DNA of 22,497 nucleotides from a virus. The stretch is taken from positions 1 through 22,497 of the IMG/VR virus record IMGVR_UViG_3300025128_000380; one strand, 5' to 3'. Position numbers and translations under genes: made by a program. Shown one piece after another: positions 10,895 to 22,092 of the stretch (positions within the stretch are counted from its first letter, which is position 1; each line of letters opens with the position of its first letter). The notes beneath the pieces are model-generated. The model saw only the letters and a program-made list of their open reading frames with translations. It made no database searches and had not been told where the DNA came from.

Positions 10895-11204
10895 TGTTTT
10901 CTTTTTGATTTATTTGACCATTACACAATCAGGTTCGATTGGAATGCAAATAGAAGATAAGTATTTCCCCTCCTTAGACAGATGCCATAGTTATATGGAA
11001 ACAGTCTTTCTACCAGATTTCATAGAGAAGAAACGCACTTGGAATTTTTACAGTTCCAAATACAGAGTACTGATGAAAGATTCCGAAGATGGTTCTATGA
11101 GGACTTATATGAGTTGTGTAGAGAAACCAGAAATGCCTTGTGGATATTCTTGGCCCTGTGGCGAAATAGAGATACCCGACCCCAAAGATGATATACGGGG
11201 TTAG
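10887..11204 (+). CDS. Unknown small Cys-containing protein, possibly exported, 105 aa
   Basis: It begins inside the end of the preceding gene (8-nt overlap). The N-terminus MNSVFFLIYLTITQSG has a short hydrophobic run (VFFLIYLTI) that could be a weak signal peptide or membrane anchor, although no Lys/Arg precedes it. Cysteines near residues 33, 76, 84 and 90 (DRCHSY, MSCVEK, MPCGYSWPCG) would suit disulphides in a periplasmic protein. The end is acidic. Its TAG stop overlaps the stop of the convergent minus-strand gene (bases 11201-11204). No family recognised; the export idea is inference. Confidence 0.55.
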   Translation: MNSVFFLIYLTITQSGSIGMQIEDKYFPSLDRCHSYMETVFLPDFIEKKRTWNFYSSKYRVLMKDSEDGSMRTYMSCVEKPEMPCGYSWPCGEIEIPDPKDDIRG

Positions 11205-11464
11205 ATGTAGAACGGTAACTCTTGATTAGTTATACGGGCGTGTTCTATACGGCCGGCACAGTTTTTACAAACTACTCTAGACTCGTTCATTAGTTTATCT
11301 GCATCTTTTCGTTGTTCTGTATTGGAAGCCCAACGAGTATAAAGAGAATGTATTGTAGTGTGGTGAGGATACCAACATAATACTTCTGGTTCAGATTCTC
11401 CACAACCACATTGTAAGTTTTCAAAAGTTTTTAGAAATTTTATATGTCTTGTCTTGCCACGCAT
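11201..11464 (-). CDS. HNH-endonuclease-like zinc-finger protein, 87 aa
   Basis: This is the only convincing minus-strand gene. It has its own late promoter (TATAAATA on the minus strand, 11496 to 11489) and an AGGAG ribosome site at 11480-11476, 11 nt before the ATG. The protein reads like a compact HNH fold: N-terminal Cys pair (LQCGCGESEPEVL, Cys19 and Cys21), a His pair (YPHH, 34-35), a helical stretch, then VVCKNCAGRIEH with Cys66 and Cys69. In canonical small HNH proteins the second knuckle reads C-x-x-C-H; here Ala70 replaces that His, and the first Cys pair is spaced by one residue instead of two. It may therefore be a degenerate nuclease or a zinc-binding DNA-binding protein. It converges on the gp17-side genes, overlapping by 4 nt. 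Confidence 0.6.
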   Translation of the reverse strand: MRGKTRHIKFLKTFENLQCGCGESEPEVLCWYPHHTTIHSLYTRWASNTEQRKDADKLMNESRVVCKNCAGRIEHARITNQELPFYI

Positions 11465-11508
11465 GATGGGGATCTCTCCTGTATCTTTTATTTATACACA
11501 TCATGCGT
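11459..11508. repeat. 10-bp perfect inverted repeat around minus-strand gene start
   Basis: ACGCATGATG at 11459-11468 and its exact reverse complement CATCATGCGT at 11499-11508. The left arm contains the minus-strand start codon and the spacer contains its ribosome site and late promoter. A minus-strand transcript starting near 11483 would not include the right arm, so this could be a DNA operator, or a hairpin in plus-strand read-through RNA. A 10-bp repeat at this spacing is expected about once by chance in 22 kb. Confidence 0.4.
11489..11496 (-). promoter_or_regulatory. T4-type late promoter, minus strand
   Basis: Plus-strand TATTTATA, i.e. TATAAATA on the minus strand. The expected start near 11483 leaves a leader of about 19 nt containing AGGAG before the HNH-like gene at 11464. 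It is 43 bp from, and divergent to, the gp18 promoter. It is the only exact minus-strand match noticed in the window. Confidence 0.75.
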
Positions 11509-11531: not shown

Positions 11532-11539
11532 TATAAATA
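11532..11539 (+). promoter_or_regulatory. T4-type late promoter for gp18
   Basis: Exact TATAAATA; expected start near 11545. This gives the longest protein-gene leader in the window (about 88 nt), carrying a hairpin and a strong ribosome site before the sheath gene. Confidence 0.85.
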
Positions 11540-18083: not shown

Positions 18084-19394
18084 ATGTTCAATTCAGAACA
18101 CCTACAGGAAAAGTGGCAGCCAGTACTAGAGCACAGCGATCTCCCTGAGATCAAAGACGCTTATAAGAAAGCAGTCACAACTGTAATTTTGGAAAACCAG
18201 GAACGGTCTATGTCGGAAGACAGGGCTTTCCTAAACGAGGCAGCGCCTACGAACTCCGCAGGTAGCGGCTCAGTGCAAAACTGGGATCCTATCCTCATTT
18301 CGTTGATTCGTCGGTCTATGCCTAACCTTATCGCTTATGATATCTGCGGTGTACAGCCTATGTCTGGCCCCACAGGTCTTATCTTTGCGATGAAATCACG
18401 CTACACAAGTCAGAGTGGTACAGAAGCATTTATGACAGAGGCCGATACGGACTTTGCCGCTAACGATGCCGCTAACGACCTGCAGTCCGGTAACCATACT
18501 GGCGGAGACGTCCTTTCGGATATGTCTGCCCACGTTACAGTCGGCGGTCTGACAACAGCTCAGGTGGAAACCTTGGGTGATGCGACAGCTAACTCGTTTG
18601 CCGAGATGGCCTTCAGCATCGACAAAGTGACCGTGACTGCGAAGTCCCGTGCCCTTAAAGCTGAATACTCAATGGAACTCGCTCAGGATCTTAAAGCCAT
18701 TCATGGTTTGGATGCTGAAACAGAACTTGCGAATATCCTCAGTTCTGAGATCCTGGCTGAAATCAACCGTGAAGTCGTCCGCACAATCTATTCTTCCTCG
18801 AAGAATGGTGCCCAGACGAACACAGCTACAGCTGGTATTTTTGACCTTGATACAGATTCCAACGGTCGTTGGTCTGTTGAGAAGTTCAAAGGCATGATGT
18901 TCCAGATTGAGCGTGATGCTAACGTCATTGCTCAGGACACACGTCGCGGTAAAGGTAACATCATCATCTGTGATGCCGATGTTGCTTCTGCTCTGTCCAT
19001 GGCTGGTTTGCTTGACAACGCTTCAGGCCTGTCTAACAACTTGAATGTTGATGACACAGGTTCGACGTTTGCCGGCACACTCAATGGTCGTTTCAAAGTC
19101 TATGTTGATCCGTATGCTAACAACAGCACAGCTACTAAGTTCTTTGTTGTTGGGTATAAGGGCACATCGCCTTATGACGCTGGTCTTTTCTATTGCCCGT
19201 ATGTTCCGTTGCAGATGGTTCGTGCCGTTGGCGAACAGACCTTCCAGCCGAAGATTGGCTTCAAAACTCGTTACGGAATGGTTGCTAACCCGTTTGCCAC
19301 AACAGATGGCGATGGCGTTATTGACTTGACCAACCCGGGTTCGGGCGCACGTAATATGTACTACCGTCGTGTCCAGGTTGCTAACCTGATGTAA
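18084..19394 (+). CDS. 23: Major capsid protein gp23
   Basis: 436 aa (T4 gp23 is 521). Hallmarks: SVQNWDPILISLIRRSMPNL, AYDICGVQPMSGPTGLIFAMKSRY, the internal FAEMAFSIDKVTVTAKSRALKAEYSMELAQDLKAIHGLDAE region (key part KAEYSMELAQDLKAIHGLD), and the C-terminal VRAVGEQTFQPKIGFKTRYGM. HK97-fold shell protein. The leader peptide ends at LNE (50-52), so gp21 should cut between Glu52 and Ala53, matching the (L/I)-x-Glu rule. Codons are richer in C/G at third positions than in its neighbours, typical of very highly expressed phage genes. An intrinsic terminator follows about 50 nt after the stop, so transcription of the head module ends here. No gp24 vertex gene follows. Confidence 0.97.
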   Translation: MFNSEHLQEKWQPVLEHSDLPEIKDAYKKAVTTVILENQERSMSEDRAFLNEAAPTNSAGSGSVQNWDPILISLIRRSMPNLIAYDICGVQPMSGPTGLIFAMKSRYTSQSGTEAFMTEADTDFAANDAANDLQSGNHTGGDVLSDMSAHVTVGGLTTAQVETLGDATANSFAEMAFSIDKVTVTAKSRALKAEYSMELAQDLKAIHGLDAETELANILSSEILAEINREVVRTIYSSSKNGAQTNTATAGIFDLDTDSNGRWSVEKFKGMMFQIERDANVIAQDTRRGKGNIIICDADVASALSMAGLLDNASGLSNNLNVDDTGSTFAGTLNGRFKVYVDPYANNSTATKFFVVGYKGTSPYDAGLFYCPYVPLQMVRAVGEQTFQPKIGFKTRYGMVANPFATTDGDGVIDLTNPGSGARNMYYRRVQVANLM

Positions 19395-19441
19395 GTCAAA
19401 AATTACTCGATATTATAACTATTATAAAGAGTAACATTTGG

Positions 19442-19469
19442 AGACCCCGCTTCGGCGGGGTTTTCTTTT
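19442..19469 (+). terminator. Intrinsic terminator after gp23
   Basis: ACCCCGC (19444-19450), TTCG tetraloop, GCGGGGT (19455-19461), then TTTCTTTT. The stem is 7 perfect bp, extendable by wobble pairs. UUCG loop plus U-rich tail is a strong Rho-independent terminator. It separates head-module transcription from the tube-like gene, which has its own promoter just downstream. Confidence 0.93.
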
Positions 19470-19480
19470 GCTTGAATCAT

Positions 19481-19488
19481 TATAAATA
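19481..19488 (+). promoter_or_regulatory. T4-type late promoter with predicted leaderless start
   Basis: Exact TATAAATA between the gp23 terminator and the next ATG (19494). Only 5 nt separate octamer and ATG; T4 spacing puts +1 on the A of the ATG itself. Confidence 0.8.
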
Positions 19489-19493
19489 GTATT

Positions 19494-20084
19494 ATGGCAG
19501 ATCCGACTTATGATGCGCAACTAAATCTCAACGATGGTAATACTATTAACTCGTTGTCTAGGCAACCTGCGACTATGGATTATGCCCAAAATAGTCAGTT
19601 TAGAATTACTTTCCCCAACTATCCAAAGGTAACTTATTTTTGTACTTCAATAACTATTCCCGGGATAAGTTTGACAGCCGTTGATAGACCTACAAGTTTG
19701 GCCAATATTCCTATGGTTGGTGATACAGTAACCTATGAAAATTTTGATATGACCTTTATAGTTGATGAGGAACTTGATAACTATAGAGAAATATATGACT
19801 GGATGATTAATATTGGTTTTCCCGATAGTCATCAACAGTTCAGAGGACAGGATAGAAGGACCCCTACTGGTGGCCCTAAACGTATTGGTGACCGTGAGTT
19901 ATATGACGATATAATGATTACTGTATTGAGTAGTAAAAATAATCCTGTAGTGAGACTGCGGTTGTATGAAGCCTGGCCTGTTCAATTAGGTGGTTTGGAG
20001 TATACTCAGACTGGTACAGATACAGAATATTTAACCTGCGATGTTTCGTGGGCTTATATGTATTACGACTTCAAATCTATATAA
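19494..20084 (+). CDS. Second tail-tube-fold protein (gp19/gp54-like; gp3 position)
   Basis: 196 aa. The pattern follows gp19 across its length: SQFRITFPNYPK for the first strand, TSITIPGISLTAV, NIPMVGDTVTYENFDMTFIVDEEL, EIYDWMINIGFPD, then VVRLRLYEAWPVQLGGLEYT and a final strand EYLTCDVSWAYMYYDF. This is the tail-tube fold also used by T4 gp54, the tube initiator on the baseplate. In many marine T4-like genomes the gene between gp23 and uvsY is annotated as tail-completion gp3, so gp54-like initiator and gp3-like terminator are both possible. It has no Shine-Dalgarno sequence and lies directly behind a late promoter and a terminator, so it forms its own transcription unit. Fold confident, exact role not. 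Confidence 0.75.
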   Translation: MADPTYDAQLNLNDGNTINSLSRQPATMDYAQNSQFRITFPNYPKVTYFCTSITIPGISLTAVDRPTSLANIPMVGDTVTYENFDMTFIVDEELDNYREIYDWMINIGFPDSHQQFRGQDRRTPTGGPKRIGDRELYDDIMITVLSSKNNPVVRLRLYEAWPVQLGGLEYTQTGTDTEYLTCDVSWAYMYYDFKSI

Positions 20085-20087
20085 ATA
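20080..20087 (+). promoter_or_regulatory. T4-type late promoter for structured RNA
   Basis: Exact TATAAATA overlapping the stop codon of the tube-like gene. T4 spacing predicts +1 at 20093, the first base of the 10-bp inverted repeat. The nearest downstream protein gene (uvsY) is about 120 nt away, beyond a U-tract. Confidence 0.75.
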
Positions 20088-20092
20088 AAATT

Positions 20093-20204
20093 GAGAGGAC
20101 AGCACGATACAGCCCGAACTGTTTTTAGCTATTTAAAAGAGTAAATTAATAGCAATTTAAGAATTGAATGCGGGTGGGAGGATCTACTGTCCTCTCTTTT
20201 TATT
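20093..20204 (+). ncRNA. Candidate structured phage RNA or attenuator, ~110 nt
   Basis: The predicted transcript begins with GAGAGGACAG (20093-20102), perfectly complementary to CTGTCCTCTC (20187-20196), which is followed at once by TTTTTATT (20197-20204). The 5' and 3' ends would form a 10-bp closing stem with a U-tract, as in a self-terminating small RNA. Inside, ACAG/CTGT (20109-20112/20119-20122) closes a CCCGAA hexaloop; GCTATT/AATAGC (20128-20133/20148-20153) forms a second hairpin; AATT/AATT extended by C-G (20153-20157/20162-20166) a third. The loop bases CCCG (20113-20116) can pair with CGGG (20171-20174) as a pseudoknot. A competing 7-bp hairpin (20176-20182 with 20190-20196) uses the same 3' arm and is itself terminator-like. 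Not a tRNA: no anticodon or T arm. No known family recognised. Confidence 0.55.
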
Positions 20205-20215
20205 ATGGAGATATA

Positions 20216-20641
20216 ATGCAGTTTAGTGAATTACAAGCTTTAGTAGAAGTTGATTTAAAAATAGATGATACCGAGTTAGACTTGGAGGCCATTCGGACTC
20301 CACAGATACACAGCAAGTATTTAAATTTCTATACACAGTTTACCTTACAGCTCAAGAAGGCTGAGGATGACAGGAAAACTATGTATAGAGATAAGTGGGA
20401 ATACTATACTGGTAAGGCTCCGGCAGAGGCTTATGCTGAGAAACCGTTTGACTTGAAAGTATTGAAAAATGATGTACAGATGTATATAGAGGCTGATGAG
20501 GATTTTCAGTTGTTGAGTCAGAAAGAGGCTTATTTGAAAAGTATGGTTGACTATACAAATCGTACATTACAGCAAATTACAAATAGGTCTTTTACTATAA
20601 ATAATGCTATAAAATGGAAGATGTTTTTACACGGTGAGTAA
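20216..20641 (+). CDS. uvsY: Recombination mediator UvsY
   Basis: 141 aa from this ATG (T4 UvsY is 137). An in-frame ATG at 20168 would add 16 residues, but it lies inside the structured-RNA region and has no ribosome site; the ATG at 20216 follows GGAG (20207-20210) and gives the natural family start MQFSELQALVEVDLKID. Further family features are IHSKYLNFYTQFTLQLKKAE, YRDKWEYYTGKAP and the C-terminal helical INNAIKWKMFLHGE. UvsY loads the recombinase UvsX onto gp32-coated single-stranded DNA in recombination-dependent replication. Its stop overlaps the uvsW ATG by one base, and the late promoter for uvsW appears to be embedded near its 3' end. Confidence 0.88.
   Translation: MQFSELQALVEVDLKIDDTELDLEAIRTPQIHSKYLNFYTQFTLQLKKAEDDRKTMYRDKWEYYTGKAPAEAYAEKPFDLKVLKNDVQMYIEADEDFQLLSQKEAYLKSMVDYTNRTLQQITNRSFTINNAIKWKMFLHGE
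20596..20603 (+). promoter_or_regulatory. Late promoter inside uvsY, upstream of uvsW
   Basis: Exact TATAAATA inside the uvsY coding sequence, 37 nt before the uvsW ATG. Expected start near 20609 gives a leader of about 32 nt. T4 uvsW is known to be expressed from a late promoter, so the position is meaningful; a chance match in AT-rich coding DNA remains possible. Confidence 0.6.
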
Positions 20642-22092
20642 TGGAAATAAATATTGAGAAGTTCAATGAAATCTATATCCGAATACAATGCGAACCTAGC
20701 ATTGCTAAAGAGCTATATGAGTTCTTCTCATTTGAAGTACCGAATGCAAGATATATGCGGGCGGTACAGAATCGTATATGGTCCGGTCGTGTTCATCTAT
20801 TCAGTCCTGCTTCTGGTAAAATCTACTTGGGATTATTTCCGTATGTCAAAAAGTTTTGCGAAAAGCAAGGATACAGAATCAACATCATCGGAACAATAGA
20901 TGCCGAGAATGGAGTAGATAAATCATTAGTAAGAAAGTTTGTAACTAAACTAAAAACTGGAGTAAAGGTTAGACCATATCAAATAAATGCCATACATCAT
21001 ATTATTAACACTAATCGTGGCCTCATACTCTCTCCCACTGGTAGCGGTAAGTCTCTCATAATATATGCGTTGACCAGATACTATGTCGATTTATTGGTAG
21101 ACAGAAAAGTTCTTATCATTGTACCAACAACAGGTCTTGTTGAACAAATGTATAATGACTTTGCTGACTACGGTTGGTTTCCCGATGAGCATTGTCATAA
21201 ACTATACTCTGGTAATGATAAAAATACAAGCAAAGAAGTAGTTATATCTACCTGGCAGTCTATCTACAGAATGCCTAAGAGTTATTTTAAACAGTTTGGT
21301 GCAACCTTTGTAGACGAAGCACATCTGGCCAAAGCAAAGTCTTTGACAGGCATTATGAATAAATTACACGAATGTAAATATCGTGTGGGAACTACAGGTA
21401 CACTAGATGGTACAGAGGTTCATCGGTTAATACTGGAAGGTTTGTTTTCTGTACATGAGCAAGTGACAACCACATCTCAACTGATAGAAGATAAACAGTT
21501 ATCTAATCTACATATCTATTGTTTGGTGATGGAGCATATTAAACAGCAGAGAGTACGGAGAGAGTATCAGGCAGAGATAGATTTTCTATCTCAATATGAA
21601 CCAAGAAACGAATTCATATTTAAACTAGCTAATACTGAGGAAGGCAATACTTTAATTCTCTGTCGGTACATTGTACAACTACAACGGTTACAGGAGATGT
21701 TAAAGGCTAGTGACAGGGATGTATATCTGGTATACGGTAAGACACCCACAGAGGACCGTGAGCTAGTTAGGGGATATGTAGAGAATGGAAAGAATGCTAT
21801 TATACTTGCATCGTATGGTGTATTCTCAACAGGCATCAATATAAAGAGACTACACAACATTATATTTGCATCACCATACAAGTCGCAAATCAAAGTGTTG
21901 CAGTCAATAGGGAGGGGACTGAGAGTAGCAGACGATAAAGATGAGTTGAAAATCTTTGATATTGCTGATGATATGTCTAGGGGTAATAAAGCAAACTATA
22001 CCCTAAAGCATCTAAAAGAAAGAATAGATATTTACAACACACAGGGATTTGATTATGACATCATTCCCGTGAAACTAAAAGAACATAAATAA
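20641..22092 (+). CDS. uvsW: DNA/RNA helicase UvsW
   Basis: 483 aa (T4 UvsW is about 500). Superfamily 2 helicase. An N-terminal domain (about 1-105, PNARYMRAVQNRIWSGRVHLF) is followed by a Q-type motif VRPYQINAI (about 110-118), Walker A SPTGSGKS (131-138), DEAH box (225-228), motif III TGT (252-254), the second RecA-like domain with LVYGKT, and motif VI QSIGRGLR (421-428). UvsW unwinds R-loops and branched recombination intermediates and helps switch T4 from origin-dependent to recombination-dependent replication. All motifs are intact. The start overlaps the uvsY stop (TAATG), with only a weak GGTGAG before it. Confidence 0.95.
   Translation: MEINIEKFNEIYIRIQCEPSIAKELYEFFSFEVPNARYMRAVQNRIWSGRVHLFSPASGKIYLGLFPYVKKFCEKQGYRINIIGTIDAENGVDKSLVRKFVTKLKTGVKVRPYQINAIHHIINTNRGLILSPTGSGKSLIIYALTRYYVDLLVDRKVLIIVPTTGLVEQMYNDFADYGWFPDEHCHKLYSGNDKNTSKEVVISTWQSIYRMPKSYFKQFGATFVDEAHLAKAKSLTGIMNKLHECKYRVGTTGTLDGTEVHRLILEGLFSVHEQVTTTSQLIEDKQLSNLHIYCLVMEHIKQQRVRREYQAEIDFLSQYEPRNEFIFKLANTEEGNTLILCRYIVQLQRLQEMLKASDRDVYLVYGKTPTEDRELVRGYVENGKNAIILASYGVFSTGINIKRLHNIIFASPYKSQIKVLQSIGRGLRVADDKDELKIFDIADDMSRGNKANYTLKHLKERIDIYNTQGFDYDIIPVKLKEHK
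22084..22091 (+). promoter_or_regulatory. Possible variant late promoter (CATAAATA)
   Basis: Seven of eight bases match the late octamer; it overlaps the end of uvsW and lies 6 nt before the next ATG. T4 spacing would start transcription one base before that ATG. Weaker than the exact matches. Confidence 0.35.

Follow-up and report, generated by a model that had tools for sequence, protein, structure and literature searches.

The DNA immediately upstream of uvsY in a marine-type T4-like phage encodes a member of a new structured-RNA family that most likely serves, in cis, as the 5′ leader of the late uvsY message. The phage is represented by a 22.5-kb IMG/VR fragment (22,497 nucleotides), the whole of which we call the window. 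We give a probability of roughly 70% to the reading that positions 20093-20196 form a conserved structured domain at the 5′ end of that mRNA, acting in cis. Only a small number of structured regulatory RNAs have been described from phages, and for T4-like leaders the list is short (gene 32, gene 43, gene e). The present family is conserved in marine phages that are abundant and belongs to a single recombination gene, with a predicted 5′ end that the late promoter fixes to the nucleotide. The RNA family, its gene and the exact late-promoter register appear to be new; the structured leader of a phage gene, as a kind, is known.

The gene order of the window (gene 23, a gene-3-like ORF, uvsY, uvsW) matches that of cyanophage P-SSM2 and of pelagiphages. 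In P-SSM2, gp3 occupies the position of the gene-3-like ORF. The structured element fills the gap between this ORF and uvsY. The features of the region are as follows.

18084-19394: major capsid gene 23
19494-20084, plus strand: gene-3-like ORF of the tail-tube family (PHROG 45 tail tube, E 1e-37)
20080-20087, plus strand: late promoter, an exact match to TATAAATA, which includes the TAA stop (20082-20084) of the gene-3-like ORF
20093-20196, plus strand: structured leader RNA domain (best match of covariance model R2; folding z -4.0; predicted +1 at 20093)
20093-20102, plus strand: 5′ arm of the long stem P1, GAGAGGACAG, the first bases of the predicted transcript
20113-20116, plus strand: 5′ strand of helix P2, CCCG, which pairs with CGGG at 20171-20174 and is nested inside P1
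20128-20153, plus strand: hairpin P3, GCTATT (20128-20133) with AATAGC (20148-20153)
20171-20174, plus strand: 3′ strand of P2, CGGG, within the invariant CGGGTGGGAGG
20176-20201, plus strand: alternative terminator-like hairpin GGGAGGATCTACTGTCCTCTC followed by TTTTT (found by pattern scan; excludes P1; clade-specific)
20187-20196, plus strand: 3′ arm of P1, CTGTCCTCTC, the perfect complement of 20093-20102
20207-20210, plus strand: Shine-Dalgarno GGAG of uvsY, assigned from its sequence and its position relative to the ATG at 20216, outside the folded domain
20216-20641, plus strand: uvsY, the recombination mediator (PHROG 231 UvsY-like, E 5.9e-47)
20641-22092: uvsW

Three further observations concern the neighborhood and the rest of the window. 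A strong intrinsic-terminator-like hairpin (GGAGACCCCGCTTCGGCGGGGTTTTC, 19440-19465) lies directly 3′ of gene 23 and 5′ of a late promoter at 19481. In sister phages, the interval between gene 23 and the gene-3-like ORF holds a second unreported structured RNA, flanked by two late promoters and without a match in Rfam (L072:1459-1590, L073:3182-3315, L081:3188-3335, L065:340-490, L077:12-140; also L255-L261). Its stem, AGGCAAGAGUGGUUUAGAUU/AAUCUAAACauuccACUCaUGCCU, changes to GGGCAAUGAGUGCUUUAGGUA/UACCUAAAGauuuCACUCAUGCCU, and AGAAAAUCAAGAGAUUGAUACUA is conserved. Finally, at 11201-11496 the minus strand carries an 87-aa ORF with paired cysteines, oriented opposite to all its neighbors; its own late promoter (TATAAATA at 11496, minus strand) faces away from another TATAAATA on the plus strand at 11532.

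T4 late promoters sit at -13 to -6 of the start (PMC1524935), so that the TATAAATA at 20080-20087 predicts a +1 at 20093. As the initial annotation of this DNA had it, that base is indeed the first of a perfect 10-bp inverted repeat, and a T-rich tract (TTTTTATT, from 20197) follows directly upon the second arm. The repeat taken alone is weak evidence: perfect 10-bp inverted repeats with 40-150-nt spacers occur three times in the window, in line with the one or two that had been expected by chance in 22 kb. Folding, which had been proposed as a check, is better evidence. The minimum free energy of 20093-20204 is -33.5 kcal/mol vs. -20.5 +/- 3.3 for shuffled sequences (z = -4.0), and none of the 200 shuffles was as stable. 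Among the other late promoters in the fetched loci (n = 290), a stem score of 16 is reached by 11 and a score of 20 by two; the elements described here have a median of 25 and a minimum of 16.5.

The stem is conserved in the window's own clade through compensatory changes of the kind that the initial annotation had named as support. In P1, three pairs are altered on both sides with pairing kept; for example, GAGAGGACAG/CTGTCCTCTC of the window becomes GGAAGGACAG/CTGTCCTTCC in L005, and in L007 the 5′ arm GAGAGGATAG faces a correspondingly changed partner. The CCC/GGG of P2 is invariant. Two pairs of P3 show two-sided changes (e.g., GCTAC/GTAGC in L005 and L006), and this hairpin is the counterpart in the window of a CUUCY/RGAAG hairpin found class-wide. 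In a plain alignment of six sequences of the clade, 94.7% of the cells pair, five pairs have two-sided changes, and the covariation score is reached by none of 500 shuffles.

Beyond this clade, relatives were located by uvsY profile searches and the sequence upstream of each match was then inspected. In total, marine T4-like phages gave 66 non-identical elements, each lying ahead of uvsY. A late-promoter-type box lies 5 nt before P1 at every element found; its first base can be T, C or G, and L051/L135 have ATAAGTA. P1 begins on predicted position +1 or +2 in each of these 66, with the register to the promoter kept throughout, even though the first ten bases occur in 31 different forms. The arms are rewritten between groups (GAAGGGGTAG/CTACCCCTTC, GAGATGGTCA/TGACCATCTC, GTGAGGAGTGG/CCGCTCCTCAC, GAAGCTGTTA/TGACAGCTTC, GAGAAGGTAGTTA/TGATTACCTTCTC, and others). 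The elements are 83-126 nt in total length, with an interior made up of the short P2, a bulged hairpin AUCUUC...GAAG, a conserved A/U-rich AUAWAUAG that follows this hairpin and, just before the 3′ arm, CYCUG. The claim of a new structured RNA beginning at its own late promoter upstream of uvsY is therefore upheld by conservation, compensatory change and register, and the outcome that would have spoken against it, a stem not conserved in related phages, is decisively contradicted.

The covariation was measured in several ways, in which groups were aligned by sequence or by model and the shuffles leave relatedness in place. From a plain MAFFT alignment of 24 sequences, RNAalifold recovers P1, the start of P2, and P3. 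For the full structure, 94.3% of the cells of this alignment pair and the covariation score is 0.310 vs. 0.192 +/- 0.011 after shuffling (0/500); with the structure slid to other registers, the score is at most 0.147. An alignment of 41 sequences has two-sided changes in 17 of 26 pairs (10/13 in P1, 6/6 in P2), with 180 two-sided-change cells where 55 +/- 8 are expected and a score of 0.479 vs. 0.220 +/- 0.011 (0/500 shuffles). This larger alignment was fitted to the model structure and so favors it, a bias of which the plain MAFFT alignment is free. In a screen of column pairs made without guidance from the structure, P1 and P2 are among the strongest pairs; the screen supported no helix outside the model and no pseudoknot.

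Some pairings and readings can be set aside at this point. CCCG 20113-20116 and CGGG 20171-20174, which had been thought to form a pseudoknot, do pair, but as a helix nested within P1. Of the three small hairpins that had been drawn in the interior, the one at 20128-20133/20148-20153 is supported by the relatives, and the other two lack such support. A four-base AGGU/ACCU pairing in some groups is contradicted by mismatches in L047 and L054. A coding reading also fails: an in-frame ATG at 20168 that would extend uvsY is lost in L003 (GAC) and L006 (AATCC), and the substitutions track pairing, not codons.

The class is specific for uvsY. When all IMG/VR viral contigs were searched with a core pattern of which uvsY is not a part, there were 61 matches: 57 precede uvsY, and in three more the contig breaks off within that gene or shortly before it; the remaining match is due to chance. 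The same pattern in 85,000 cellular (GTDB) genomes gave six chance matches, none with the flanking features or uvsY. At the gathering threshold, Rfam 15 has no match, riboswitches included, in the window or in 19 related loci; a permissive Rfam search of 20040-20260 gave matches far below threshold only (best E 2.7). Searches of the open-access literature for structured RNAs and leaders of uvsY turned up no such element. That the domain is structured and conserved, is specific for uvsY and is in register with the predicted +1 is shown by comparison of sequences.

The window itself is a divergent member. A covariance model (R1), built from the 24-sequence alignment and trained on two groups, matched seven additional types of sequence, each in the equivalent position and on the equivalent strand. 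It had no other plus-strand match in 381 kb, a set that also covered element-free uvsY loci, and it missed the window's clade. A second model, R2, also built without any sequence from that clade, when run unfiltered has its best match in the window at exactly 20093-20196 (plus strand), a weak one (22.5 bits, E 0.035). It matches at the exact place in L003-L007 and L140 as well, and the E values for the others of the clade, 0.0036-1.1, are weak singly. Run on whole records at default settings, R2 finds one copy in 8 of 14 and misses the divergent ones, the window included; no record has more than one copy. Membership is settled by the uvsY tree, together with synteny, the promoter register and these weak matches. 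Of 33 sampled carriers, 31 form one clade (support 100/98) with no loss among the sampled members, and the window's clade is nested in it, adjoining L051, with which it shares the ACAGCCCGAU motif. The window has what defines the class: a late promoter, P1 from +1 or +2, P2 and the P3 hairpin, directly upstream of uvsY.

The remaining two carriers, L066 and Melnitz, sit on long branches and their placement is unsure. Cultured Methylophilales phages Melnitz (four records), with Methylophilales sp. H5P1 as a host, have an unannotated, probably divergent copy upstream of uvsY, with GAGCAG...CUGCUC, CCUCUG, and a hairpin followed by AUUUAG; the covariance models do not match it. The copy lies at about 2383-2500 of the locus L116, which corresponds to about 129666-129783 of MZ577098.1. 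The Melnitz paper reports a glutamine riboswitch, a tmRNA and late promoters, and does not mention uvsY (PMC9004378). This probable copy offers an experimental entry. Marine T4-like phages have been reported to be without identifiable middle promoters (PMC9004378), and the element makes testable how they control recombination genes that T4 runs from middle promoters.

What would such a leader do? The gene-3 stop is the site of a late promoter in many uvsY relatives outside the carrier clade; 11-26 nt, with the Shine-Dalgarno sequence among them, separate it from the uvsY ATG. Since the promoter is in the same place with or without the element, the latter would be a longer version of the leader that a late uvsY transcript already has. 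From the 3′ end of P1 to the ATG there are 10-27 nt (median 19), which leaves no room for another promoter and means that the folded domain stops at the edge of the ribosome footprint. The late promoter at 20080-20087 would thus start transcription on the first base of P1, and the 5′ end of the message would be a closed domain made up of P1, an internal loop, P2 and the P3 hairpin, with the ribosome-binding site of uvsY just outside. A stem on the first transcribed base protects the 5′ end from 5′-dependent decay, as is established for ompA-type stems, and the paired 5′ end here may likewise shield the uvsY message. The closed domain may also keep the uvsY start site apart from upstream sequence. 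We infer cis action and 5′ protection from these arrangements, and the start and end of the transcript are predictions.

The conserved core exceeds what a mere cap would need, which leads us to propose, by analogy with T4 gene 32, that it may be the docking site of a bound regulator. We speculate that a protein is a likelier partner than a metabolite; it might be UvsY itself, much as gp32 acts at gene 32, or some other factor. A stronger version, in which the core of this uvsY-specific class senses a specific ligand, whether UvsY, a different protein of replication or recombination, or a metabolite, and thereby sets recombination output late in infection, is tentative, and we hold it at somewhat less than even odds; if true, a ligand-sensing leader would couple recombination-dependent replication to late transcription. 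A simple switch that sequesters the Shine-Dalgarno sequence is not supported class-wide: in partition-function calculations across the class, the accessibility of the start site is 0.51 with the full leader vs. 0.52 with the 3′ arm alone, and hence independent of the 5′ arm.

Two other arrangements at the uvsY start were seen. In one group (L060, L117-L119, L208, L213, L225), the stretch from the structured leader to the uvsY ATG has no recognizable Shine-Dalgarno sequence. In another lineage (L065, L071-L073 and L084), a sigma70-like promoter (TTGACTT...TATAAT) comes after the late promoter ahead of uvsY, so near the ATG that the uvsY message would be almost leaderless.

The T-rich tract had suggested a terminated regulatory small RNA or an insulator keeping late transcription out of uvsY. 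As a general function this is not supported, because the tract is not conserved class-wide: of 39 representatives, just 11 have a U-run of 5 or more after the stem, and in several a U-tract is missing altogether (e.g., L043, CTACCCCTTC-ACATTAAAAGGA). The part that stands concerns the window's clade, in which attenuation or insulation is possible. There the 3′ arm and the U-tract, either as P1 or as the hairpin at 20176-20196 (GGGAGGA with TCCTCTC), could limit late transcription into uvsY and uvsW. The hairpin, with a local fold of -10.7 kcal/mol, is followed by T5, a kind of site found three times in the region vs. 0.9 times in shuffles, and all six members of the clade keep both a U-run of at least 4 and the alternative pairing. 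It competes with P1 for the same 3′ arm, however, and P1 is preferred overall (-35.0 vs. -25.8 kcal/mol without P1) and forms in prefix folds once its 3′ arm is complete; something other than termination may account for the invariance of the GGGAGG arm. We give an attenuator in this clade a low probability, but it is a real rival to the leader reading.

A stand-alone small RNA of about 110 nt, made late in infection and acting in trans, is a little less probable still. It would have its own promoter, a compact conserved domain from the predicted +1 and, in the window's clade, the U-tract. But the element is never found away from uvsY, there is no terminator class-wide, the Shine-Dalgarno sequence and ATG of uvsY follow within 10-27 nt, and the promoter that relatives have at the same place serves uvsY itself.

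The location recalls the T4 origin oriF, alias ori(uvsY), which lies at uvsY (PMC3016281), and a transcript from upstream of uvsY might form an R-loop and prime DNA synthesis as it does there. The purine-rich 5′ arms would presumably favor RNA-DNA hybrids. T4 oriF, however, needs a middle-mode MotA promoter and an A+T rich unwinding element and no specific R-loop sequence (PMC3016281), whereas a MotA-type promoter (TGCTTTA-N10-14-TATAAT) was not found in the window and an R-loop would give no reason for RNA pairing to be conserved. For want of a middle promoter in the window we reject an R-loop origin, whose probability we consider very low. That the stem is a chance hairpin or an inherited sequence without function, as the three 10-bp repeats of this spacing might suggest, is already refuted by the covariation results. 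The arms are rewritten in compensation across groups, the +1 register is constant, and the element is retained throughout a divergent clade (31 of 31 members sampled).

The proposed leader of the late uvsY mRNA can be compared with several known systems. Stem-loops of the ompA type at the 5′ terminus stabilize bacterial mRNAs. As in these, a stable stem begins on the first transcribed base and the ribosome-binding site is downstream and unpaired; the uvsY element is far more elaborate, its conserved core and internal loop exceeding a simple cap. With T4 ori(uvsY)/oriF it has in common a transcript starting beside uvsY, but the middle promoter and the unwinding element of that origin are not seen here, and oriF has no sequence-specific RNA (PMC3016281). 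Melnitz and Mosig provide another structured regulatory RNA of marine T4-like phages of streamlined hosts, the glutamine riboswitch (glnA RNA) (PMC9004378). The uvsY element differs from it in gene, fold and core, has no riboswitch match in Rfam, and an expression platform was not found class-wide. In the inhibitory leaders of the T4 gene e type, RNA structure is likewise tied to the choice of a late promoter (PMC3014915), but there the late promoter removes the structure, whereas the late uvsY transcript would start with it and the Shine-Dalgarno sequence is not buried. The autogenous operator of the T4 gene 32 leader, in which a structure nucleates gp32 binding and a pseudoknot is joined by an A+U rich stretch running to the ribosome-binding site (PMC3014915), differs in sequence, fold and gene; the uvsY element has no supported pseudoknot, and binding of UvsY or another protein to it is a proposal. 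Both are nonetheless structured 5′ leaders of genes of T4-like phages for recombination DNA-binding proteins, and in both a folded element lies upstream with unpaired A+U rich sequence leading into the start site (PMC3014915).
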